Of a stretch of DNA of 56,895 nt, positions 28,154 to 40,282 are shown in pieces (the first letter of the stretch is position 1; each line of letters opens with the position of its first letter). The notes under the pieces are model-generated. The model did no database searches. It worked only from the letters and a program-made list of their open reading frames with translations, and had not been told where the DNA came from. A program made the position numbers and the translations under genes. Source of the DNA: Anaerolineae bacterium. Its GTDB lineage: Bacteria; Chloroflexota; Anaerolineae; Aggregatilineales; Phototrophicaceae. The DNA is taken from the NCBI GenBank assembly GCA_025454525.1, contig JALOOG010000015.1:1-56895 (forward strand), written 5' to 3'.

Positions 28154-28957
28154 TTAATATTGCAATACTTTCGGCGCATCCACAGTGCGATTAACGACGG
28201 TAGTCGGTAATTCTTGGTGATAGACCCGCGTTGGGATCAAACCACACCCCCCGAAACGTTCCATCACCCGAATTTGCGCGTAGACATCTTCACCACAATG
28301 TTCATCTGGGAGTTGTTCCCAAAATTGAAAGCCGCCCGATGTCCGTAATTTTTCGGTGTCGTATAAAACGCATCCCCCGACCCACGCCACTTTGTAAACC
28401 TGTTGGGTTAACGGCGTTAGACCAAGATCGCGGGCCACATGCAGGATGTTTGCGGCATTGTGGAGTGGGTAACGTTGCCATTCAACGGTATCTGGTCGGA
28501 TGATCTCCGGTGTTACCTGTTGATCCCAAAATTCGATCGCTTGTTGATGAGGACGCACGTCATCCAAGTAACTCAGACCTGGCACGCAACAGCCGACAAA
28601 CCCACACTTGTATTGTTGGATCGCTGTTAACATCCGTTCAAGCGCGTCTGATTCATAAATCAGATCGTCATCTGAAAATAGGATATACTGGGCGTGCGCT
28701 TGATCTAACAGAAATTGACGATGTTCCGCTAAACCCCGACGTGGGAGATGTTTATGAACCTCAACAGGATGCCCATGGAAGCGCAACACTCGTAAGACCG
28801 TTTGTAGCTCTGAGTTGTCTTTTAAGTCCGATTCTTCGGTTTGATCGGAGATCACAACCCGAAAATCACGGAAAGTCTGACTAATGAGGCTGGTTAAGGT
28901 GATCGCTAACGCATGAGCGCGCCGATAGGTTGGAATCAAGACATCAATCTGCGGCAT
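28154..28957 (-). CDS. Family 2 glycosyltransferase
   Basis: The 267-residue GT-A enzyme has an N-terminal IDVLIPTYRR start, a nucleotide-binding region, and the metal-binding DDD (FSDDD near residues 94-98). The late GEDV segment near 230 would hold the catalytic-base region. No membrane helix is present. Its start overlaps the stop of the upstream GT9 gene by 14 nt; it is the last gene of the eight-gene glycosylation operon. Donor and acceptor are unknown. Confidence 0.9.
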   Translation of the reverse strand: MPQIDVLIPTYRRAHALAITLTSLISQTFRDFRVVISDQTEESDLKDNSELQTVLRVLRFHGHPVEVHKHLPRRGLAEHRQFLLDQAHAQYILFSDDDLIYESDALERMLTAIQQYKCGFVGCCVPGLSYLDDVRPHQQAIEFWDQQVTPEIIRPDTVEWQRYPLHNAANILHVARDLGLTPLTQQVYKVAWVGGCVLYDTEKLRTSGGFQFWEQLPDEHCGEDVYAQIRVMERFGGCGLIPTRVYHQELPTTVVNRTVDAPKVLQY

Positions 28958-30089
28958 GATCGCTTACCTCGCTTTTCAGACTCGATAAAAATCGTCTACC
29001 ATAACGCCGATCATAATCAACCAGATCAAAAGCTGCTTCGATCACCGATTCAACCGTCACACCGGCCACAAAACAAGCTTGATGTGTGCAATGCTCCGAA
29101 GGGGGATCGAGGATCATCATGTCTTGGCCACACAAGGGGCATTGCATCGTCCAAGACGGCAAAGAACGGTGACGACTCCGATTAAAGTGTCCCCAATTCA
29201 GCATATTACCACACCAAAAGATCCCAACATTTGGCGCGTTCACCGCGTTGGCAAGGTGCATCGGGCCGGTATCATTGGAGATCACCACCGCGCTTTGGGC
29301 TAATAACGCCGCTAATCCCCCCATGGAAAGGCGTTCACACGCATCAATCGCCGGAAAGCGCATTTCGGCGATCACACTTTCAACCACCTCACGTTCACTA
29401 GCGACACCTGTGATCACGACCTGTAGGCCTAAGTTAGCTAATGCATCACCGACTTGCGCGAAACGCTCCGGTGGCCAACGTCGCCGTAAGTCGGATGCGC
29501 CGGGATGAATCACCCCATACGATCCCGGAAGAAGATCAGGAAAGACGGCCCGAAATGCCTGATGATCAGCATTTGTTAAGGTGATCAATGGTTCATAGTG
29601 ATCGGGAATCGCACCTACTAAGCGCACCAGCTCCACTAAGCGCATCAATTCATTTTGATAAAACACGTATGGAATCCAACGATCCAGTTCAGGTGCATCA
29701 GGTGTTTTCATGCCGATGTTGAACTTTGCACCCAGATTTTTGAGAAATGGATTGGAATTACGGCCGCCCCCGTGCATCTGAATTGCAAGGTCGAATTGTT
29801 CCGTTTGCATTTGTAGGAAAAACGCCGCTAATTCATGCGGATCGGGCGGCGTATCTGGATGATCGGGTTCAACCCGCACTCCATAACTAATTGGGATCAC
29901 GAGCGCACGATCCACAAAGGACGGGCGCTCTTCGATAAATTTTTTGTGCCATGGACGACCCAGATAGACCATTTCCGCATCAGGATAGGTTTTGCGTAAT
30001 GCGGACAAAGCGGGAGTCGCTGCCACATAATCTCCGAGTGCGGTCGCCCGTAAAACCGCAATTTTACGGATGTTGGGCAGTATATTCAT
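28944..30089 (-). CDS. Family 9 glycosyltransferase (heptosyltransferase-like)
   Basis: The 381-residue GT-B enzyme is of the ADP-heptose:LPS heptosyltransferase family. An ALGDYVAATPAL motif near 15-26 corresponds to the N-terminal GD-l-lTP signature; VIHPGASD-RRRWP near 197 and ISNDTGPMHLA near 270 are the donor-site motifs. A C-terminal cysteine-rich piece (CPLCG, CTHQAC) is unusual for the family. It overlaps the neighbouring GT9 gene by 26 nt. A heptose donor fits the hldE/gmhB/gmhA genes of the same operon. Confidence 0.9.
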   Translation of the reverse strand: MNILPNIRKIAVLRATALGDYVAATPALSALRKTYPDAEMVYLGRPWHKKFIEERPSFVDRALVIPISYGVRVEPDHPDTPPDPHELAAFFLQMQTEQFDLAIQMHGGGRNSNPFLKNLGAKFNIGMKTPDAPELDRWIPYVFYQNELMRLVELVRLVGAIPDHYEPLITLTNADHQAFRAVFPDLLPGSYGVIHPGASDLRRRWPPERFAQVGDALANLGLQVVITGVASEREVVESVIAEMRFPAIDACERLSMGGLAALLAQSAVVISNDTGPMHLANAVNAPNVGIFWCGNMLNWGHFNRSRHRSLPSWTMQCPLCGQDMMILDPPSEHCTHQACFVAGVTVESVIEAAFDLVDYDRRYGRRFLSSLKSEVSDHAAD

Positions 30090-31140
30090 AAGTCAGTTCC
30101 TTTACTGCATTTAGAATATCGATCGGTGTTGCATCGATCACCGGTTGCGAGACATATTGGTGATAAGTGTGGCGTAACAAGACATTGCGACTCTGCAATT
30201 CGGGGGGAACGTCGAAATACAAAACGCGATGCGGCACGTTCCAAGGGGTATGTTGGGGATTGGTGTGAGCATACAATACGATCACGGGCGTATTCATCGC
30301 CGCCGCGATATGCACAATTCCGGTGTTGTTAGCGATCAACAAGGGGGCCGAAGCAACCAGTCCGATCAACTCCCCTAGCGATAGTTGACCCGCTAGAGAA
30401 ATCCCATTCACCCCTGTGGCAACTTGTCCACACAGATCGATCTCTGACGTGCTTCCGGTCACGACGATCTGCCAACCTAGAGTGCGGAGTTGTCGGCCGG
30501 CTTCAAGGTACTTGGCCGTTGGATAGCGTCGTTTTGATTCGCTCACCCCCGGATGAAGGATCAACCATGCTTGATGCAGATCAAGCCCTAAAGTTTGCAT
30601 TTTGTGTAGGGATGAGGCGCGTAAACTGGGATCAATGCGGAGTTGTAACTTGGGATCGATGTAATCGACTCCAACAGACTCGATTAGCGCCAGTTGACGT
30701 AAGACTTCATGTTGAATCGGGACAAACGGCTCTTGATCGGGTTGCCAATGAGTCAGTAAGCCATAGGGATTTTCACGGCAATACGCGACTCGGATCGGGA
30801 TATCAGCTAAATAACATAACATCGCGGCCGGCAAGGGATTTTGGCTAAAAACGGTGAAAATAATCGCGCAGTCAAAGGCTTCGGCCTTTAACCGTTCGAT
30901 CAACGCTTGGACTTGTGCGCTTGCGCCTTGGTAAGCATCGCTTTTGACCCATGGCACTTCAAAGGCGATCACCTGATCGATGTCCGGGATGAATTGGGCG
31001 ATCTCCGCGCCGATCAGTGAGGTTAACAATGTTAGGCGGATCGTGGGATCAGATTGTTTGAGCGCGTGAAAAGCGGGCGTGGTCATGATCACATCGCCGA
31101 AATTGTCTAAACGCACACATAACAGGTTACGTCCTAGCAT
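30064..31140 (-). CDS. Family 9 glycosyltransferase (heptosyltransferase-like)
   Basis: This second GT9 enzyme has the N-terminal RLDNFGDVIMTTPA motif near residues 9-22, a donor-site LILHPGVSESKRRYP near 193-207 and IANNTGIVHIAAAM near 268-281. The ATG at 31140 is chosen because GGGGGA precedes it and the family start begins there; the open frame runs on into hldE to 31245. It lies 1 nt from the hldE stop. Like its neighbour it probably transfers a heptose. Confidence 0.9.
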   Translation of the reverse strand: MLGRNLLCVRLDNFGDVIMTTPAFHALKQSDPTIRLTLLTSLIGAEIAQFIPDIDQVIAFEVPWVKSDAYQGASAQVQALIERLKAEAFDCAIIFTVFSQNPLPAAMLCYLADIPIRVAYCRENPYGLLTHWQPDQEPFVPIQHEVLRQLALIESVGVDYIDPKLQLRIDPSLRASSLHKMQTLGLDLHQAWLILHPGVSESKRRYPTAKYLEAGRQLRTLGWQIVVTGSTSEIDLCGQVATGVNGISLAGQLSLGELIGLVASAPLLIANNTGIVHIAAAMNTPVIVLYAHTNPQHTPWNVPHRVLYFDVPPELQSRNVLLRHTYHQYVSQPVIDATPIDILNAVKELTYEYTAQHP

Positions 31141-31141
31141 T

Positions 31142-32557
31142 TCAATCCCCCACCACTTCGATAAGGTACGGCAAGATCTCAACGTGTCCGCCGAATGATT
31201 CGACGAGTTTCGCTTCGGGAAGCGACGCTTTGCGATAATTACCACCTTTCACAAAAACATCGGGTTTTACCACTTTAATCAGCTCATCAGCGGTCTGCTC
31301 ACCGAACTGCACGACATGATCCACACAATCTAGCGCGGCCAAGACGTGCATTCGATCTTCTAAGGCGGTGGTGGGGGCAGTTCCTTTGACACAGCGCAAG
31401 CTTTCATCATTGTTAACCCCGACAATCAACACATCACCAAGGCTTTTTGCCTGTGAAAGATAGGTAATGTGGCTACGGTGTAAATTATCGAAACAGCCGT
31501 TGGTGAAGATGATGCGTTTTCCCAGATCCCGATAAGTAGTCACTTGGTGCGAGAGTTCTTCACGGTTGGCAATCACTTTCGAGGAAGGGGTAAAAAACTG
31601 GGTTAATTCGTCTTGTGAACAGGTCGCTGTACCTTTTTTGCGAACGACGATATTGGCGGCTGCGGCCGCGATCTCGGCGGCCGTGATCGTTTCGCATCCG
31701 CTGGATAGCGCTAAGGTGAGTGCGCTCACATAGGTATCGCCAGCTCCGGCAGCTTGTGAGTCTGGTGTTGCTTTGGCATGAGTGCGATAAGGGGCGCGAT
31801 CACGCTCAAAGATCACCGCACCTTCTCGATCTAGGGTCAATGCGACGATCTGTGATCCGGTAATCTCCAAGATGCGTTGATGATGCGAAAGGATCTGATC
31901 GACTCGTGTGTCGTTCTTTTCTTCGGTGAGTTGAAGTAATCCTACGGCTTCACCATAATTCGGTTTCACCGCCGTGGGTCGGAGTTCGTGGTAACGGGTT
32001 AAATGTTTGGAATCCACGATCAACGGCTTTTTGTCGGATTGTTGTAACGTTTTGAGCGTATCGATGAGTCGATCTGTGCAGATCCCATAGCCATAATCAG
32101 AGATCAGGATCGCATCTGCATTTGAGTAAAGCTTTTTCAATCGTTCGATCAAATGCGACTCAACTGTGGGTGAAAGTAAGTTGGTTGTACCGTAATCGTA
32201 GCGCACAATCAATTGATCACCAGAAAGCACACGCTTTTTAGTCAAGGTTTGTCGAGACGCATCGTAGAAAATGCTTTCGGTATCGACTTTCGCTTGTTTA
32301 AGAAGGTGAGAGACGATCTGACCTTCGTGATCTTTTCCGGTGACGGTGAGATAGCTGACTTGTGCGCCCATTAGCGCTAAATTGAGGGCTGCATTGGCCG
32401 CACCGCCGGGGACATCTTCACGCGATTGTAAATTGACCACGGGTACGGGGGCCTCACGACAGATCCGAGTAGAGGTCCCTTTAAGGTAGACATCTAACAT
32501 CAGTTCACCGATCACAATCACTTTTTGTTGTGCAAATTGTGCGATCCACCGCTTCAT
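31142..32557 (-). CDS. hldE: Bifunctional heptose-7-phosphate kinase / heptose-1-phosphate adenylyltransferase (HldE-like)
   Basis: The N-terminal ~320 residues form a PfkB/ribokinase-family kinase (GGAANAALNLALMG near 53-66, catalytic AAGAGDTY near 269-276) that makes heptose 1,7-bisphosphate. The C-terminal ~140 residues form the nucleotidyltransferase that makes ADP-heptose, starting FTNGCFDNLH and containing VKGGNY. The HxGH nucleotide motif here reads HRSH: the Gly is Ser, while both histidines remain. I chose the ATG at 32557, which overlaps the gmhB stop (ATGA) and has AGGA upstream. Confidence 0.92.
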   Translation of the reverse strand: MKRWIAQFAQQKVIVIGELMLDVYLKGTSTRICREAPVPVVNLQSREDVPGGAANAALNLALMGAQVSYLTVTGKDHEGQIVSHLLKQAKVDTESIFYDASRQTLTKKRVLSGDQLIVRYDYGTTNLLSPTVESHLIERLKKLYSNADAILISDYGYGICTDRLIDTLKTLQQSDKKPLIVDSKHLTRYHELRPTAVKPNYGEAVGLLQLTEEKNDTRVDQILSHHQRILEITGSQIVALTLDREGAVIFERDRAPYRTHAKATPDSQAAGAGDTYVSALTLALSSGCETITAAEIAAAAANIVVRKKGTATCSQDELTQFFTPSSKVIANREELSHQVTTYRDLGKRIIFTNGCFDNLHRSHITYLSQAKSLGDVLIVGVNNDESLRCVKGTAPTTALEDRMHVLAALDCVDHVVQFGEQTADELIKVVKPDVFVKGGNYRKASLPEAKLVESFGGHVEILPYLIEVVGD

Positions 32558-33126
32558 CGTATCGTTTCCTGTTTCAGGATGATCTGAGAGACTTGATCCC
32601 ATCCGTCGATCAAAAAATCTGGCTGACTCAGTGGGGTAAACTCCCGTTGTGGGTCATAAGGCTTTTCGATCAAAATGGTCTGACAACCGACTCGGTTGCC
32701 CGCTTCGCAATCTGCGGCGATGTCCCCAATCATCCAAGATTGATGCAGGTCGATGTCGAGATCACGCGCCGCTTGTTCTAAGAGTCCCGATTTTGGTTTA
32801 CGACATGCACATTCCACACGGTAAGCGGCGATCGGTGCGTCAGGTAGATGTGGACAGTAATAAAACCCGTCTAGAGCGATCCCAAAGCGCTGTAATAACG
32901 CATTGAGTCGATGTTCTACAGCGATCAAGGCGCTTTCTGCAAATAATCCCCGTGCGATCCCTGATTGATTCGAGATCACGATTAAGGCATATCCGGCTTG
33001 CTTTAAATGCCGGAGTGTTTCTCCGGCATTCGGCGCTAACGTGATCAAGGTGGGATCGACGTTATAAGGGATGTCTGGGATCAAGGTGCCGTCTTTGTCG
33101 ATAAACACCGCTCGGATCATGGCCAT
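32554..33126 (-). CDS. gmhB: D-glycero-D-manno-heptose 1,7-bisphosphate 7-phosphatase (GmhB-like)
   Basis: The 190-residue HAD-IIIA phosphatase has nucleophile and acid aspartates in FIDKDGT (residues 8-14), a SNQSGIARG segment near 51-59, the zinc-binding CPH...CACRKPKSG region near 91-115, and GDIAADCEAG near 136-145. It removes the C7 phosphate between the two HldE reactions. It overlaps the SDR gene by 10 nt upstream and hldE downstream, so the three are coupled. Confidence 0.93.
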   Translation of the reverse strand: MAMIRAVFIDKDGTLIPDIPYNVDPTLITLAPNAGETLRHLKQAGYALIVISNQSGIARGLFAESALIAVEHRLNALLQRFGIALDGFYYCPHLPDAPIAAYRVECACRKPKSGLLEQAARDLDIDLHQSWMIGDIAADCEAGNRVGCQTILIEKPYDPQREFTPLSQPDFLIDGWDQVSQIILKQETIR

Positions 33127-33842
33127 GAGGTCTCGGTCATCGGGATCACCATGACTTCTGGGATAATCGTTTCGGCGGGTTGTTGGAGGAGATAGATCAC
33201 CGTGTCCGCCACATTTTTCGGGTCTTGTAGGTTTGAGAGTGGCGTATCTGGGAAACGATCTAAGATAAATGGGGTCTGCATCCCACCTGCGATCACCGCG
33301 CTCACTTTAACCTTGTGTTGACGAGCTTCGACAAACAAGGCATGAGATAATCCCAATAATCCCCATTTTGAAGCATGATAAGCAGACGCATTGGCCCACA
33401 TGCGTTTCGCGGCGGTGGATGCGATGTTAACAATATGTCCACTTCTTTGTCCGTACATCGTTGGGATCACCGCTTTGGCCATGAGGAACGGCCCGCGCAA
33501 ATTAACCCCGATCACCCGATCCCATTGTTCGATACTCAATTCATCCAGTGGCAATGTGTGATCGGTGCCGGCGTTGTTGATCAGGATATCGATTCGTCCG
33601 TATTTCTGAAGAATCTGTTGGATACCCGTCTCTACGCTGTTCGGGTCGCTCACATCAAGGCGAATCCCCTCACTTACACAGCCGGCCGCGGTGAGCGTTT
33701 CGGCAACGCGAGTCGCTTTTTCGTGTTGAATATCGCCACAGATCACAATCGCCCCTTGTTGAGCGAGTGCATGAGCGATCGTCTCACCGAGTCCCTGACC
33801 GCCCCCGGTCACAATCGCTACTTTACCCGTTAATGAAGTCAT
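33117..33842 (-). CDS. Classical short-chain dehydrogenase/reductase
   Basis: The 241-residue classical SDR has the cofactor-binding TGGGQGLGE near 12-20, NNAG near 88-91, the catalytic Ser in NIASTAA near 138 and YHASK near 152-156. It lies inside the heptose operon, where the extended SDR HldD would be expected, but its length and motifs are of the FabG type and not those of an ADP-heptose 6-epimerase. The substrate is unknown; a sugar-modifying role is suggested only by context. Confidence 0.88.
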   Translation of the reverse strand: MTSLTGKVAIVTGGGQGLGETIAHALAQQGAIVICGDIQHEKATRVAETLTAAGCVSEGIRLDVSDPNSVETGIQQILQKYGRIDILINNAGTDHTLPLDELSIEQWDRVIGVNLRGPFLMAKAVIPTMYGQRSGHIVNIASTAAKRMWANASAYHASKWGLLGLSHALFVEARQHKVKVSAVIAGGMQTPFILDRFPDTPLSNLQDPKNVADTVIYLLQQPAETIIPEVMVIPMTETSWP

Positions 33843-33857
33843 TCGATCCCCTTTCAG

Positions 33858-35735
33858 TTAGGCGCTTTCGGATTGCATAATGGGTAAGATGCGAACCGTA
33901 GAAGCTGTTTCGATCGGTGTTTGTGCTAAGAGTGCGGTTTCTACCAATTCACACAGGATATGTAAGATTTGGATGTGTAACTCTTGGATGCGTTGGGTGT
34001 CATACGACGGCACGAGGATATGAAGATCCGCGTGATCGATCAATTCGCCGCCACTTTTGCCTAAAATGGCAATCGTGGTGATGTTTTTGGCGCGTGCTTG
34101 CTGGAATGCTTTAATCACATTGGCGGAGTTGCCACTGGTGGACAATCCGATCACCAGATCGCCGGATTTGCCGTAGGCTTCTACTTGACGGGCAAAGACC
34201 CGATCATAGCTGTAATCATTTGACCATGCGGTTAAGATCGATGTATCTGCGGTGAGCGCGATCACGGGTAAACCGGGACGCTGTTCATCCATAAAGCGAC
34301 CAACAAATTCGGCGGCAAAATGTTGCGCTTGTGAGGCGCTACCACCATTTCCACAGATCAACACCTTACCGCCTTCGGTGAACACTTCAGCAATGGCTTG
34401 CGCCGCTTTCAGAATCGGCAAGCGCAACAATTCATGGGATTTGCGGATCGTCTCTAGCGATGACGTAAAAGAGCGTTCGATGATCGCAATTTGTCCTTCA
34501 CCTCTGTTACGAGTCAAGACTTTTTCGTAGAGCGTAGCCACCGCTTGTCCGACTCGCGTCCAAGTAAAATGTGTGCTGACTCGCCGGATCGCGTTTTGTC
34601 GGAAAATTTGATGTAATTGTGGTTGGGTCAGGACTTCATGTAGCTTTTCGGCCAAGGTTAACGGTGTTTTGGGAGGGACTAGAAAACCGGTTTTACCGTC
34701 CACCACACTGTATTTGATCCCACCCACACGCGATCCAATCACCGGAGTGCCACAGGCCATTGCCTCTAAGGGGGTCATGCCAAAGGGTTCATACCAAGGG
34801 GTGGAGACGAATACATCTGCCGCTGAATAGTAATATTTCAGTTGATCGCGGCCCTTGCGTCCGATGAATGTCACCCATTCCCCAACGCCTTGTGTTTGCG
34901 CGATCTGCACGAGACGGCCGATCTCTGGGGTTTGAACCGGATCGGGTTGGTCCGAATCACCCCCTACAATCAAAAGTCGGGCTTTGGTCTGACACCGTTT
35001 GATCAAGATCGCGAGGGCTTCGATCACGGTCTCAACGCCTTTACGTGGCACCATGCGCCCTAACTGCAAGATCAATTTTTCGGATGGATCTAGGTTCAGC
35101 ATCATGCGGGCGAGCTGTGGGTCTACTGGGTGAAATTGCTGTGGGTTGATGCCGCATGGGATGATCGTGATCCGATTGGCATCCGCATGATAGTGCGCGA
35201 TCAAGTCCTCTTGATCTTGTGGGCATTCGGCGATGATCTGATCGGCTTCTTGCACGATTTGTTGTTCGATCTCAAGGCGTTGACTGGGAAATTGATCCGC
35301 TTTGCCTTGGTGCAACAAACGAATTTTGCCTAAGGCATGGAAGGTAATCACAAACGGAATGCCTAAGCGTGCTTTGATCTGACAAGCCACTAACCCAGAC
35401 ATCCAGAAGTTGGCATGAAATAGTTGATAAGGATCGGATTCAGCAAAACCGATCACGTTTTCAGTGAACTCATCCATGTACTGGAGTAAATCCTCTTTAC
35501 GGATAAAGGCGATCGGGCCGGCTTTAATGTGGATCACACGCACATTGTTTGACCATGTGATGATTTGCGGCATTCGTGGATCGTCCCAACGGGTAAAGAC
35601 ATCGACAAGGTAGCCTAATTCACCTAATTGTCGGGCGAGTTCACCCACATAGACGTTCTGTCCGCCGCTGTCTACCCCGCCGAGGGTGGCTAATGGGGAG
35701 GCGTGTTCGCTAATCAATCCAATTTTACGCTTCAT
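33858..35735 (-). CDS. Fusion: GT4 glycosyltransferase + sedoheptulose-7-phosphate isomerase (GmhA)
   Basis: The 625-residue two-enzyme protein carries a GT-B family 4 glycosyltransferase at residues ~1-415, of the sucrose-phosphate-synthase/MshA type. It begins SEHASPLATLGG with GGQNVYVGELA, and has donor motifs GRMVPRKGVE near 226 and EPFGMTPLEAMACG near 317. A SIS domain matching GmhA follows at ~435-615: CGNGGSASQAQHFAAEF, LTADTSILTAWSNDY, LSTSGNSANV, and the late QELHIQILHILCE. The zinc-ligand His/Glu and Gln/His positions of GmhA are kept. GmhA makes heptose-7-phosphate for the HldE and GmhB encoded next door. No stop or frameshift separates the halves. Confidence 0.92.
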   Translation of the reverse strand: MKRKIGLISEHASPLATLGGVDSGGQNVYVGELARQLGELGYLVDVFTRWDDPRMPQIITWSNNVRVIHIKAGPIAFIRKEDLLQYMDEFTENVIGFAESDPYQLFHANFWMSGLVACQIKARLGIPFVITFHALGKIRLLHQGKADQFPSQRLEIEQQIVQEADQIIAECPQDQEDLIAHYHADANRITIIPCGINPQQFHPVDPQLARMMLNLDPSEKLILQLGRMVPRKGVETVIEALAILIKRCQTKARLLIVGGDSDQPDPVQTPEIGRLVQIAQTQGVGEWVTFIGRKGRDQLKYYYSAADVFVSTPWYEPFGMTPLEAMACGTPVIGSRVGGIKYSVVDGKTGFLVPPKTPLTLAEKLHEVLTQPQLHQIFRQNAIRRVSTHFTWTRVGQAVATLYEKVLTRNRGEGQIAIIERSFTSSLETIRKSHELLRLPILKAAQAIAEVFTEGGKVLICGNGGSASQAQHFAAEFVGRFMDEQRPGLPVIALTADTSILTAWSNDYSYDRVFARQVEAYGKSGDLVIGLSTSGNSANVIKAFQQARAKNITTIAILGKSGGELIDHADLHILVPSYDTQRIQELHIQILHILCELVETALLAQTPIETASTVRILPIMQSESA

Positions 35736-36702
35736 ACTGTTTGACTGCTTTCAGACTCTGTTGTTCAAAAATTTGTAACCACTCCGTCTTAAAACGTTCG
35801 ATGTTGAAGCGCTCTAAGGCGGTTTGGCGGGCATGTTGGCCTAATCGGCGGGCGAGATCCGGATCATCTAACAATTGCCGCATATCTTGGATCAAACGAT
35901 CTGGGTCAAGGGAGAGATAACCATTTTTTCCTGATTGGATCACGGTTACAAGTTCGGTGGTTTGGAAACCGACAATTGGAAGTCCGGTGAGCATTGCTTC
36001 AATAATCGCGAGTCCCATACTGGTGTATCGGATCGGGTTGAAGAAAAAGCGGTATTGCCCGATAAAATCTGGCAATTCATTGTGAGGGACTTCGCCAATC
36101 CCGCCTACTTGATCTGCATTCATCCCAATTAAATCTACCGGAATCGTTTTGCGGATGTACTCAAACAGATCAGCACCTAAACGCCGTCCACGGGAATGGA
36201 GGTTATTGATCACCACAATCCCACGATCTAATGTCCCTTGATAGCGATAGCCCGGATCTACCACCCCGTGATCAATGGTCAAGGTAGGCACACCGTTGGT
36301 ATCCCACATCAGACGGTTAAAGTCGGTGCAATGTACAACTGGAAGATCGGAATTACTCACGATATGACGGGTGTCGGTAGGATGTTCCCTTGGAGGATCA
36401 TGTTCAAGATAAAGTTTAGGGAGTGTCAATTGGGTTTCCGAGAAGATTTCGTATTGATCGTGTTCATAATGGGGTCGCGCTTGAAACAAAATCATATCAA
36501 AATCGTGATCATGAAGTTGTTCTAATGGGATTTCATAGACATTTGGGCCAAAGGGAAACGGCCCGCTGCGTCCACCATAGCCGAACCCGCGTTCTTGACT
36601 CAATGGCAGGTAAAAATCACAATCCACTTGGGAGAGGTAATACAAGTAGGTGCCATGAACGTGCCAAGTGAATACTTTCAAACGACGTTGAGAGTCAGTC
36701 AT
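35725..36702 (-). CDS. GT4-like glycosyltransferase
   Basis: This is a 325-residue GT-B enzyme, short for the family and with a divergent N-terminal half. The C-terminal half has NNLHSRGRRLG near 163, EVPHNELPDFIGQYRFFFNP near 205-225 and MGLAIIEAMLTGLPIVG near 230-246, the EX7E-type donor site. The ATG at 36702 is chosen for AAGGATC upstream; the open frame extends to 36906, but that part crosses the promoter and the preceding terminator. It starts the eight-gene operon and overlaps the fusion gene by 11 nt. Confidence 0.85.
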   Translation of the reverse strand: MTDSQRRLKVFTWHVHGTYLYYLSQVDCDFYLPLSQERGFGYGGRSGPFPFGPNVYEIPLEQLHDHDFDMILFQARPHYEHDQYEIFSETQLTLPKLYLEHDPPREHPTDTRHIVSNSDLPVVHCTDFNRLMWDTNGVPTLTIDHGVVDPGYRYQGTLDRGIVVINNLHSRGRRLGADLFEYIRKTIPVDLIGMNADQVGGIGEVPHNELPDFIGQYRFFFNPIRYTSMGLAIIEAMLTGLPIVGFQTTELVTVIQSGKNGYLSLDPDRLIQDMRQLLDDPDLARRLGQHARQTALERFNIERFKTEWLQIFEQQSLKAVKQYEA

Positions 36703-36759
36703 GGGTGAGATCCTTTGTTGTTTATACAGATGGATCGTGCTAGGTTTTTCAAAATTAAG

Positions 36760-36789
36760 ATTACAATTTCTATAATCAGAATATGCCAA
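36760..36789 (-). promoter_or_regulatory. Putative promoter of the heptose/glycosyltransferase operon
   Basis: Reading leftward, TTGGCA (36784-36789) and TGTAAT (36760-36765), each five of six to the sigma70 consensus, are 18 nt apart and about 58 nt before the first start of the operon. Confidence 0.5.
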
Positions 36790-36870
36790 AATGGAGATTG
36801 TGGGAATGGGTGAGAGGGCGTATCTTCTTCGGTAGTCACATGACCACCTTTGCGTGAAGTTAATATGAGT

Positions 36871-36897
36871 AAAAACGGGACGTAGGTTTACGTCCCA
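36871..36897 (-). terminator. Terminator after the kinase gene
   Basis: GGGACGTA and TACGTCCC form an 8-bp stem with a 4-nt loop, followed leftward by GTTTTT. It ends the kinase/phosphatase/VWA/hydrolase operon just past the kinase stop. Confidence 0.8.
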
Positions 36898-36902
36898 TTT
36901 GG

Positions 36903-38744
36903 TCACACGGTGAGGTAAATTAGACGTTGCTCATTTAGCGCGATTAAACCTTGTCCATAGGCAAACAACCGATCACCCCCATGGATCACTTTTTCCGTTT
37001 GGGGAAACGTGGTTTGTTGTTGGGTTAGCAAGTGTTGTTTGATGACTCCTTGATCCGTCGCAAACAACAGCTGATGGGTCGCATACGTCACGCTATCCAA
37101 CGGGTTAAACAGGTCAATCTCTTGCCGGATTTGTGAGTTCAACAGGTTTCCGTGTAGGTTAAATTCGTCAAGGCGGATCTGTTCAACCCCGTTCAGTTGA
37201 GTGAGTCGTAGTAAGAGCAAGCTGCTTTCGCTAAATTTGACGGTCGCTTCGATCAAAAACTCTCCGCTCATCAATTCTGGTACGGCTAGATCGATTCGTT
37301 CCCCTTGGTTCAAAAGCCAGTAGGTGTATTGATTAAATATTCGGAAATATCCTACGATCCGCTCACGCTTGGGATCAACCCGTAGCCAAGTTTGACCTTC
37401 TACAATGGCCAAGATCGCTTGTTCCACCCATTGATCAAAGCGCATTTCACCGCGCATCAAGTAGCCATTGGATAAGCGGTAAAGTGCCTTGGTGCTGGTG
37501 GCGAATACGCGTTCACGGTTGCCATAGAGTCCGGTGGAAGTTTTGGTCTTTCCTATCGCTTTACCACCGTCGGTATCGATGATAAACAGATCATCCGACT
37601 CGATGTTGGGTGAGATGATGATATAACGGTCAAAAAAACCGTAGGTTGCGTTCGGGATCGCGTTAAAGAGTTCGACTCGTCCGGTTTGTCTTTCTCCCGT
37701 CAAGGTATATAACACCGCTTTTCCGTCTTCATGACAGATCACCCGGATTTCATGATCAACAATCGTCCATGCGACAATTTTACCCGTCGTGCGTAACAAG
37801 GTGCGGGCGTTGGATGCCTGTGCGAGAGTCGCGGCTGGTATTAAAGTAGCACAGTGTGGACAGCGGGCGCGCTGCATCGGGTAAGGCTCACCGCAAAAGG
37901 CGCATTTTCGTAAGGATGCTGCGTAAAGTTGTAATTGATCTAATGGAAATTCTCCTCGATGGCCTTGTGTGAACCATTGATCAAAGACATTTGCGAGATC
38001 ATCGCTCAATAAATCCAGAGAATAGGCGATCTTCGGATAAATCACATCTGCACAGAACACGCTCATCTTTTGATGCGCCCGTTGGGTTAACAATTTGACA
38101 TGGGGATGCACCCCTCCGTAAGGATGTGACAGAAGCAATGATTTAAACAGTAAGACCGCGAACGAGTACCAGTCATGGATCGGTTGAAAGGCCGGTTTTG
38201 CGCCCAGATCGACACCATATAACAACGGATCGATAAAGGCTTCTGTGCCTACTGCACAGGGATATTGCTCAAATTGAAAGCTATCGACATCAATAAAAAG
38301 CAATTCGGAGCCTTTAAACATCAAGTTTAAATCATTCAGATCACCCACCACCATCCCGGCTTGATGAATTTGGCGTAGGGTTTCTCCTGTGGTCATAAAC
38401 AGTTGGCTAATCGCCTGTGTGTTAATCCCGCTAGTTGCTCGGTACTTGCGGGATGCCAGTTGTCGAATTTCGGTATACTCCCCTTCTAGTAGCCGCATGG
38501 TAAAACCAATCACTTGGGGATTACGCTTCTGATTTAGCACTAACTTTTGGGGTGAGATCACGGTTGACGGGAGCGTGGGTGTTTTTGGGAGCATCGCCCG
38601 TAATTTCTGCTCACGTTGGACATCGGGTTTCAGGTAGATCTTAACCGCTTCTTGGCCGCGTTTAAAAACGGTGGCTTCTCCGCCGATGCCAATAGTATCT
38701 TGATTATTAAGGGTGATTTTTTGTCCATCAATCACAATATCCAT
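36903..38744 (-). CDS. YegI-like protein kinase with zinc ribbon and beta-rich C-terminus
   Basis: The N-terminal ~270 residues are a eukaryotic-like kinase: glycine loop GIGGEATVF near 20-28, catalytic loop GDLNDLNLM near 137-145, and DVDSF in place of DFG near 151-155, as in the YegI / TerY-P-associated kinases. A zinc ribbon follows (CAFC and CPHC pairs near 282-305). The last ~290 residues form repeated beta-rich segments, perhaps a propeller. It is the last gene of a module with a PP2C phosphatase (3-nt gap) and a VWA protein. Confidence 0.85.
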   Translation of the reverse strand: MDIVIDGQKITLNNQDTIGIGGEATVFKRGQEAVKIYLKPDVQREQKLRAMLPKTPTLPSTVISPQKLVLNQKRNPQVIGFTMRLLEGEYTEIRQLASRKYRATSGINTQAISQLFMTTGETLRQIHQAGMVVGDLNDLNLMFKGSELLFIDVDSFQFEQYPCAVGTEAFIDPLLYGVDLGAKPAFQPIHDWYSFAVLLFKSLLLSHPYGGVHPHVKLLTQRAHQKMSVFCADVIYPKIAYSLDLLSDDLANVFDQWFTQGHRGEFPLDQLQLYAASLRKCAFCGEPYPMQRARCPHCATLIPAATLAQASNARTLLRTTGKIVAWTIVDHEIRVICHEDGKAVLYTLTGERQTGRVELFNAIPNATYGFFDRYIIISPNIESDDLFIIDTDGGKAIGKTKTSTGLYGNRERVFATSTKALYRLSNGYLMRGEMRFDQWVEQAILAIVEGQTWLRVDPKRERIVGYFRIFNQYTYWLLNQGERIDLAVPELMSGEFLIEATVKFSESSLLLLRLTQLNGVEQIRLDEFNLHGNLLNSQIRQEIDLFNPLDSVTYATHQLLFATDQGVIKQHLLTQQQTTFPQTEKVIHGGDRLFAYGQGLIALNEQRLIYLTV

Positions 38745-38747
38745 CTT

Positions 38748-39452
38748 TTAGTTACCCTTTTCGATCACAATCAAGGTGGTATCGTCTTTAAAGCGACGCT
38801 CTTGATTAGACCAGTAATTGAGCTTACGTTGTAGGCCGCGAGGATGAGATTGCCCCCACAGCTCTGAAACTAGATCTAATTCAAAGCCGTCGCTTCCAAT
38901 GGCGAGGCGTTGCCAATTTTTAGCGAGGGTTTGACACTCAAAGCCGGTGGGGAGCTGATAAGCGGGTGGAAGATGTCCTTTGACCAAGTGATAAGCGAGA
39001 TAAGTCGGCTCATTTTTCTGGTCAATCATGGTCTTAAAGTCATCAATCACCAGCAAACCATCTCCGGCGGTAAACAGCACGCTTGTTTCGTGGTGGATAA
39101 TCACCCCTACTACCGTGAACAAGAGGTATTTCTGTACAAAAATGCGGCGTTGTAGATCCGGCATTAAGGTGCATAAATTCTCTAAAAAGCTTAAGGTGTC
39201 TTGGTAGAGGCATTCGGGAAGATCATGTGCATTATGTCCTTCCTCTAGCAGTTGGGCGGCCCGTCGTGAGAGATATTCGGCACCTAACATCGCTCCGACT
39301 TCAGAGCGTTCCCCTTGACTACAGCCGTCACAGATAATGCCGATGATATAGTCTTCATGTTCGATCAGTGCGTAACTGTCTTGACAATTTGCTTGTCGTA
39401 ACAGGTGATCGCGTCCAATCACTTGGCCGGCTCGTATATGGTAGTTTTGCAT
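38748..39452 (-). CDS. PP2C-family Ser/Thr phosphatase (YegK-like)
   Basis: The 234-residue PP2C-like phosphatase shows the metal-binding aspartates in CQDSY (residues 23-27) and ICDGCSQGERSEVGA near 38-52, a third in TAGDGLLVI near 128-136, and a final KDDTTLIVIE. It is shorter than typical PP2C, as in the YegK / TerY-P group. It presumably reverses phosphorylation by the kinase encoded next to it, possibly on the VWA protein. AAGGA precedes the ATG. Confidence 0.87.
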   Translation of the reverse strand: MQNYHIRAGQVIGRDHLLRQANCQDSYALIEHEDYIIGIICDGCSQGERSEVGAMLGAEYLSRRAAQLLEEGHNAHDLPECLYQDTLSFLENLCTLMPDLQRRIFVQKYLLFTVVGVIIHHETSVLFTAGDGLLVIDDFKTMIDQKNEPTYLAYHLVKGHLPPAYQLPTGFECQTLAKNWQRLAIGSDGFELDLVSELWGQSHPRGLQRKLNYWSNQERRFKDDTTLIVIEKGN

Positions 39453-39474
39453 AAACCTAGGTCCTTTGCGAAAA

Positions 39475-39498
39475 GAATCGCCCTGATTAGGGCGATTC
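39475..39498 (-). terminator. Terminator after the VWA gene
   Basis: GAATCGCCCT and AGGGCGATTC form a 10-bp stem with a 4-nt loop, then TTTT leftward. It lies between the VWA and PP2C genes and could make the phosphatase/kinase genes less expressed than the hydrolase and VWA genes. Confidence 0.75.
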
Positions 39499-39500
39499 GC

Positions 39501-40265
39501 TTAAGGTGTAAAAAAGCCGTTGCCATTGGTATTAATCACACCTTGGCTTGCCCGGATGACACTCCCAGAGATCATCTGTAAGGCTCGGCGGATCTCAGCG
39601 GGACTATTGTTGACCGTCAGCACTTGATTAAAGCCGATGTTTTTAGCGATCTGTTGGAAGGTGGCTGGATGCCCTAAACCGACAAACGCTAAGGTGTAGT
39701 ATTCCTGTTTAATCAGGTCTTGTGAGACGGTGTGTACGGCGGAAGCGGTGTATTTCGATACATTGTCTTCACCGTCGCTAATCACCACGATAATCGCACG
39801 GGTGCGAAGCCCGTTATTGCGTAAATCTTGGCCATAGGCAACGATACCGCGAAAGCCGTCTAAGATCGTGTCATAAAGGGCGGTAGACCCTTGTGGATCG
39901 TAATCCGCTTTGGTTAAGTCTTTCACGCGGTCAATGGGGGTATATCCAAACAGGAGGCGTGGCTGATCAGCGAATTTCCACGCGCTCATCAAGATGCTAT
40001 CGCTGTTTTTGGAGTCATTGAGGGCGCGGGTCATTTGGTTAAACGAGTCGATCACCTCATTGCGTACTCCGCCCATGGATCCGCTTTCGTCAAGGATCAC
40101 CACTAACAAGGTGACATCATCGGTATTCAATTCGTCAATTTGTGCGCCGATACAGCCTAAGGCGGCTTGTCCGTTCAAGTTTTGGATTAGCAGGTCTACG
40201 GATTGGTGACTCATGCCGTTTTGTTGCACATTTTGGAACAGGTTATGTAGATTTTGGCTGCTCAT
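39501..40265 (-). CDS. VWA-domain protein (YegL/TerY-like)
   Basis: The protein is about 254 residues. The VWA domain (~45-230) has an intact metal-ion-dependent adhesion site: DESGSMGG near residues 59-66, a Thr/Ser region with DPQGSTALYD near 123-132, and the later Asp in ISDGEDN. It has no signal peptide, so it is cytoplasmic. The ATG at 40265 is chosen for the GGAG upstream; 40280 is the alternative. It fits the TerY/YegL member of the kinase-phosphatase-VWA triad. Confidence 0.87.
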   Translation of the reverse strand: MSSQNLHNLFQNVQQNGMSHQSVDLLIQNLNGQAALGCIGAQIDELNTDDVTLLVVILDESGSMGGVRNEVIDSFNQMTRALNDSKNSDSILMSAWKFADQPRLLFGYTPIDRVKDLTKADYDPQGSTALYDTILDGFRGIVAYGQDLRNNGLRTRAIIVVISDGEDNVSKYTASAVHTVSQDLIKQEYYTLAFVGLGHPATFQQIAKNIGFNQVLTVNNSPAEIRRALQMISGSVIRASQGVINTNGNGFFTP

Positions 40266-40282
40266 CTTTGCATACTCCATTT

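Follow-up and report, generated by a model that had tools for sequence, protein, structure and literature searches.

The window, the whole 56,895-nucleotide stretch of Chloroflexota DNA that was analyzed, carries a confirmed fusion of a family 4 glycosyltransferase (GT4) with a sedoheptulose-7-phosphate isomerase (GmhA), in which two full-length domains share one uninterrupted frame. The fusion is best read, with a probability of roughly 0.55, as one bifunctional cytoplasmic heptose-glycan protein that benefits from co-localization and a fixed stoichiometry rather than from direct hand-over between its halves. The observations behind this reading are the single frame, the intact motifs, the operon, the single GmhA match in the genome and the recurrence of the fusion. 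We infer that both activities are present, that the protein is a tetramer and that co-localization is the benefit of the fusion. The GmhA half would act as the isomerase that provides the committed heptose supply, and the GT-B GT4 half would extend the same heptose-containing glycan by a sugar. Because the solved GmhAs are tetramers, a GmhA core would carry four GT arms, each attached via the continuous helix, and the tethering may thus place committed supply and glycan assembly side by side in fixed proportion. The parts of the fused gene are as follows.

33858..35735, minus strand: GT4 and GmhA sedoheptulose-7-phosphate isomerase fused gene, 625 aa, ATG start, TAA stop
34506..35735, minus strand: GT4 half, aa 1-410, GT-B fold (Pfam and structure comparison)
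33918..34481, minus strand: GmhA/SIS half, aa 419-606 (NCBIfam and structure comparison)
34428..34562, minus strand: junction, a predicted continuous helix, aa 392-436, linking the final helix of the GT half with the initial helix of the GmhA half (AlphaFold)
34308..34322, minus strand: zinc ligands H472 and E476, corresponding to H64 and E68 of GmhA (alignment)
33960..33986, minus strand: zinc ligands Q584 and H592, corresponding to Q175 and H183 of GmhA (alignment)

The minus-strand frame at 33858-35735 has no internal stop, and the plus strand there has many. Pfam analysis of the protein identified Glyco_transf_4 (aa 24-199), Glycos_transf_1 (aa 214-384) and SIS_2 (aa 428-559), all above their cut-offs. 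The cut-off of the NCBIfam gmhA model, TIGR00441, is 209.45 bits and was passed narrowly, by the protein with 210.5 bits and in the genome search with 214.4; the same cut-off was passed in 0 of 36 related genomes in one set and in 1 of 12 in another, there by an unfused gene. Both halves match their respective families across nearly the whole length, and the GT4 half shows both Pfam domains, the predicted GT-B fold and the E-x7-E motif expected of GT4 (GT-B) enzymes. The frame and the profile matches thus bear out the initial annotation, which had described an in-frame fusion of two complete-looking enzymes in 625 residues. The scores were below the cut-offs of the MshA model TIGR03449 (290.2 vs. 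462.5 bits) and the sucrose-phosphate synthase (SPS) model TIGR02472 (147.7 vs. 576 bits).

The possibility was considered that the join is an artefact of assembly or annotation, as the source genome is a 230-contig assembly. However, there is no in-frame ATG between codon 380 and codon 481, GTG and TTG codons being present, and both other frames are stopped between codons 407 and 449, so that a missed start or a frameshift at the junction is unlikely. Furthermore, the Chloroflexota-type join recurs with similar linkers in ten further loci and is therefore not an error of this contig. A missed stop or start between the halves, the weak point that the initial annotation had named, is accordingly improbable, and with the same join in further genomes the artefact reading was rejected as extremely unlikely.

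Structure prediction, which had been proposed as a check, gave a GT-B half and a GmhA-like half joined by one helix. The AlphaFold2 model, a monomer computed with 50 relatives, had a mean pLDDT of 92.0 and a pTM of 0.72, the latter making the placement of the halves uncertain. Within the connecting helix, aa 411-420 had a mean pLDDT of 72 and aa 421-430 one of 81. When the GT half was compared with solved structures by Foldseek, the best matches were SPS Tll1590 (6kih, TM 0.93) and MshA (3c4q, 0.91), both by target length; the 3c48 chains of MshA reached only 0.53-0.54, with an rmsd over 10 Å. The best solved matches of the GmhA half were 1tk9 (TM 0.95) and 2x3y (0.90), at 45-46% identity and an rmsd of 1.3-1.8 Å, and the closest solved GmhA by sequence was 2xbl, from Burkholderia pseudomallei. 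The likeness to GmhA thus comprises a full-length TIGR00441 match, all four zinc ligands and this structural agreement. The fused domain differs in standing behind a GT4 in one chain and in having glutamine at the D61 position, whereas the solved GmhAs are, in the available accounts, stand-alone tetramers.

All four GmhA zinc ligands are conserved in 24/24 fused proteins. The available text on B. pseudomallei GmhA gives H64, E68, Q175 and H183 as the zinc ligands and D61 as the residue that couples paired sites (PMC5705639). That on Neisseria gonorrhoeae GmhA, a tetramer, gives H61, E65 and H183 together with Q175 of the neighboring subunit (PMC5387315). In the fused protein the D61 equivalent is Q469, and aspartate is found there in only 5 of the 24 fused proteins. 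The available text does not describe D61 as invariant, and because unfused relatives vary at this position too, it was not treated as GmhA-defining, and the idea that the change is specific to the fusion was rejected.

At an E limit of 1e-3 the source genome contains exactly one TIGR00441 match, the fused domain, although a second GmhA gene may have been missed because the assembly is 97% complete. A search of the same genome with the fused protein at the same limit returned 28 matches, and its isomerase half was covered only by the fusion itself. Thirteen fused genomes were considered, namely the source genome and two sets of six, with E limits of 1e-3, 1e-25 and 1e-20 and excluding G600, G792 and G496. 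In seven of them (G000, which is the source genome, G277, G013, G056, G400, G401 and G402) no GmhA match other than the fused domain was present, and the other six have further GmhA-like genes (G193, G038, G053, G407, G408 and G409). More broadly, TIGR00441 at E 1e-25 found GmhA in 33 of 36 Chloroflexota genomes with the GT or the fusion, that is, in all 6 fused genomes given and in 27/30 with the GT alone. At this limit no GmhA was found in G121, G302 and G129, and the GT is therefore not always accompanied by GmhA.

The SIS half could conceivably have a non-catalytic role, as a sensor or a DiaA-like scaffold, since the D61 equivalent is glutamine and, in the available text of PMC5705639, the D61A mutation leaves B. 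pseudomallei GmhA with 6% activity. However, D61 is variable in unfused relatives as well, the four zinc ligands are present, the domain is the sole GmhA match in a genome that has the remaining pathway, and the protein scored 154 bits against a cut-off of 352 with the DiaA model PRK10886. The zinc ligands and the single-GmhA status thus make a non-catalytic SIS half very unlikely, and the GmhA half was taken as a probable isomerase.

The surrounding genes agree with a role of the putative bifunctional protein in heptose metabolism. All are on the minus strand, in the order GT4b, fusion, SDR, GmhB-like, HldE-like, two GT9 and GT2.

35725..36906, minus strand: GT4-like glycosyltransferase GT4b, upstream of the fusion with an 11 nt overlap (Pfam)
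33117..33842, minus strand: SDR (short-chain dehydrogenase), 15 nt downstream of the fusion (Pfam)
32554..33126, minus strand: GmhB-like heptose-1,7-bisphosphate 7-phosphatase (HAD-IIIA) (NCBIfam)
31142..32602, minus strand: HldE-like heptose-7-phosphate kinase / heptose-1-phosphate adenylyltransferase (NCBIfam)
30064..31245, minus strand: GT9 heptosyltransferase-like GT9b (Pfam, NCBIfam)
28944..30089, minus strand: GT9 heptosyltransferase-like GT9a (Pfam, NCBIfam)
28154..28957, minus strand: GT2 glycosyltransferase, relatives of which recur across many loci (Pfam)

The GmhB-like gene was below the cut-offs of the GmhB models (141.4 vs. 178 and 126.9 vs. 149.6 bits) and above that of the HAD-IIIA model (113.7 vs. 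44.6 bits). The HldE-like gene matched nearly the whole model with 346.2 bits, below the cut-off of 521. The gmhB, hldE and GT9 neighbors named in the initial annotation were thus recovered; although clear, the matches to GmhB and HldE stay under the curated family cut-offs. A relative of GT4b adjoins the GT4 gene in most related loci. No HldD epimerase match above the cut-off was found in the source genome (best score 121.9 vs. 274.6), which is compatible with D,D-heptose without proving it. A second HldE-kinase-like gene is present on another contig of that genome (G000:C207:18339-19298; 292.1 bits vs. a cut-off of 345, in a 333 aa frame). A promoter and terminator scan of the DNA gave fewer sites than shuffled sequences (13 vs. 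22.5 and 12 vs. 17.5). Upstream of GT4b, the window has a frame at 36903-38744 with a weak, below-cut-off kinase match, followed by an ORF at 38748-39452 and another at 39501-40280 that has no Pfam match at E 1e-8. By eye only, 36903-40280 looks like a kinase, phosphatase and VWA set.

The GT residues H133, R227, K232, E316 and E324 are conserved in 24/24 fused proteins; we take these to have the donor and catalytic roles of their counterparts in MshA. The GT4 half resembles SPS Tll1590 (6kih) and MshA (3c4q, 3c48) in its GT-B fold, its E-x7-E motif and its retained donor-side residues. It differs from both in scoring below their model cut-offs, in having signature residues of its own, D22, Q26, F110 and A134 among others, and in its location in heptose loci. 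All 108 compared GT rows scored higher against this GT4 than against the paralog from the source genome, which supports one subfamily without proving it because the rows were fetched by their likeness to this GT4. The available text of a GT4 review provides background on SPS (PMC11046441). A GT relative in Paraburkholderia (L163) adjoins a HAD-IIIA hydrolase, an annotated heptosyltransferase II, a carbamoyltransferase (L163:15263-17008) and a GT9. This neighborhood speaks for a connection of the GT subfamily with heptose beyond Chloroflexota and Actinomycetota as well.

Direct channeling, in which the GT4 half would glycosylate heptose 7-phosphate or sedoheptulose 7-phosphate coming from or destined for the GmhA half, was weighed against co-localization. 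The closest solved GTs, Tll1590 with fructose 6-phosphate and MshA with inositol phosphate, use sugar-phosphate acceptors. Two basic residues are nearly invariant among the subfamily rows, K80 (108/109) and R153 (109/109). The K80 position is also basic in Tll1590 (R) and MshA (K), while the source-genome paralog has proline there, and Tll1590 has arginine at R153. However, R153 is retained in the paralog too, and the arginine pair of MshA falls at 154-155 of the alignment, next to R153 and to a gap of one residue, which makes the match unsure. Moreover, the positions presumed to be acceptor contacts in MshA differ, Y110 being F, T134 being A and R154 mostly L or F, and the same GT4 subfamily often occurs without a fused GmhA. 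Direct channeling is therefore very unlikely. A self-feeding enzyme, assembled independently in two lineages, whose GT4 half directly glycosylates the heptose phosphate made by its GmhA half, is a further proposal that we hold to be quite improbable; if true, it would define a branch of heptose metabolism that bypasses free ADP-heptose at that step.

On the established route to ADP-heptose and its use, the HldE kinase, GmhB and the HldE adenylyltransferase act between the product of GmhA and a transferase that uses ADP-heptose. Because three reactions separate GmhA from ADP-heptose use, simple channeling is unlikely, and co-localization with fixed stoichiometry remains the preferred reading. 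The suggestion in the initial annotation that the fusion couples substrate supply to glycan assembly is weakened by these intervening reactions, whereas the placement of the fusion in a heptose operon held and some selective value is suggested. HldE itself, a kinase and adenylyltransferase, is a precedent for domain fusion in ADP-heptose synthesis; it differs in joining two steps of one pathway rather than an isomerase and a glycosyltransferase.

A search for the same domain architecture across genomes, also proposed at the outset, showed that the GT4-GmhA fusion is rare but recurrent. In a contig scan, 80 of 266 relatives were kept. Both domains were in one frame in 15 of these loci (L009, L010, L011, L015 and eleven from Kocuria, Tersicoccus and Dietzia). 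The gmhA gene was next to the GT4 gene but unfused in 38: in 18 of the 80 loci the two share a frame that one stop codon interrupts, and in 20 they occupy different frames and overlap or lie within 100 nt. The two were further apart in 4, and GmhA was absent from the stretch examined in 23. The sequence around the single stop was inspected for 9 of the 18 same-frame loci. In seven of these junctions (L023, L025, L028, L033, L040, L043 and L044) the stop, TGA or TAG, is separated from an ATG by one codon; this unfused state is one codon short of fusion.

Genome surveys were carried out with E limits of 1e-60, 1e-100 and 1e-95. The full-length fusion was found in at least 7 of 400 Chloroflexota genomes, the source genome included, with carriers listed in six families, and in at least 4 of 396 Actinomycetota genomes (the Kocuria centre, G600 with a Chloroflexota-type fusion, and two more); weaker fusions could escape these counts because of the E limits and because only the best matches were used for Chloroflexota. 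Among the matches listed there was no full-length fusion in 398 Pseudomonadota or 200 Gemmatimonadota genomes, in which the GT alone occurred in at least 4 and at least 1, respectively, centres included. A plasmid collection gave 19 matching records at E 1e-60; in no record did a single place span 80% of the query, so that a full-length fusion was not found there. The fusions in L009, from a MAG named Bacillota, and L138, from G600 in the Actinomycetota set, are of the Chloroflexota type and may reflect mislabelled bins or horizontal transfer.

Twenty longer stretches, 4 fused and 16 unfused, were also compared. The operon in the unfused Chloroflexota stretches consists of gmhA, gmhB, hldE, two or three GT9 genes, GT4b, GT4, often GT2, and then SDR. 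A separate GmhA-like gene is present at the gmhB end in 12 of the 16 and absent from L124, L128, L130 and L132. The fused stretches (L118-L121) have the order GT4b, GT4-GmhA, SDR where present, GmhB, HldE and GT9.

The origin of the fusion was analyzed with a careful GmhA tree of 77 rows, which left out 16 near-duplicates as well as L049_n0 and L126_n1, and with a quick GT tree that kept 82 of 110 rows and left out 28. Loci dropped before counting were the duplicates L089, L090, L091, L092, L093 and L139 (the same as L118, L119, L010, L120, L121 and L018), the source-genome paralogs L003-L008, and L095-L117, a group of 23 short loci; longer stretches among L122-L137 cover 14 of these, and the remaining 9 were left out. 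In the GmhA tree, the 11 Chloroflexota-type fused domains form one clade (96/95), and the 11 actinobacterial fused domains fall inside actinobacterial rows that are mostly unfused. Constraining all 22 to a single clade lowered the log-likelihood by 83.5 and was rejected (p-AU 0.000163), and the fusion therefore arose at least twice; one origin of the 11 actinobacterial domains was not rejected (p-AU 0.265). The two fused sets were also apart in the quick GT tree. There, the GT-only L012, L013 and L014 fall inside the Chloroflexota-type fused group, so the join was later lost or gained more than once in that group.

These results bear on whether the fusion is neutral, with co-transcribed neighbors having lost a stop and both enzymes working but their joining having no functional consequence. 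Fusion is indeed a short step, because the GT4 and GmhA genes are so often close or in the same frame (the 18 and 20 of 80 loci above), and its distribution in the Chloroflexota and Actinomycetota surveys is sporadic. Nevertheless, the join has been long retained, since the Chloroflexota-type fused GmhA domains make up one supported clade with carriers in six families. The separate origin in Actinomycetota, moreover, involved the same GT4 subfamily and the same domain order. Because one GT4 subfamily was joined to two separately derived GmhAs, as the AU test indicates, some selective value is suggested, and a neutral fusion is possible but the less likely explanation.

To our knowledge, the heptose glycans of Chloroflexota and Actinomycetota have been little studied. 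That the same pair of activities has been fused repeatedly and independently is evidence from nature for their working together. The recurrence draws attention to a GT4 subfamily associated with the heptose loci of Chloroflexota, Actinomycetota and some Proteobacteria, and the fusion offers one protein through which the substrates of this GT can be sought. The GT4 and GmhA families are well known; neither a description nor a characterization of their fusion, which the initial annotation had allowed might exist, was found in the part of the open literature searched. In the available text of a paper on archaeal fusions, glycosyltransferases are a category and sedoheptulose appears in a legend only, a GmhA fusion being absent (PMC11237513).

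Additional SIS-type genes were encountered among the relatives. Five unfused Chloroflexota operons have a second, divergent SIS gene beyond the SDR, encoding a putative isomerase (L125:11685, L126:12270, L129:6894, L134:5912 and L135:5827), in which the zinc ligands are changed (E68 to D, Q175 to E) and threonine is at D61; four of the five were included in the careful GmhA tree and group there as a clade with long branches (100/100). Furthermore, GmhA matches were located in unusually long frames, one of 384 aa at G809:C18:19045-19497 (the Hydrogenophaga genome of L022) and one of 495 aa at G807:C402:7401-7859 (the Gemmatimonas genome of L016), each of which may be another fusion or simply a long frame.
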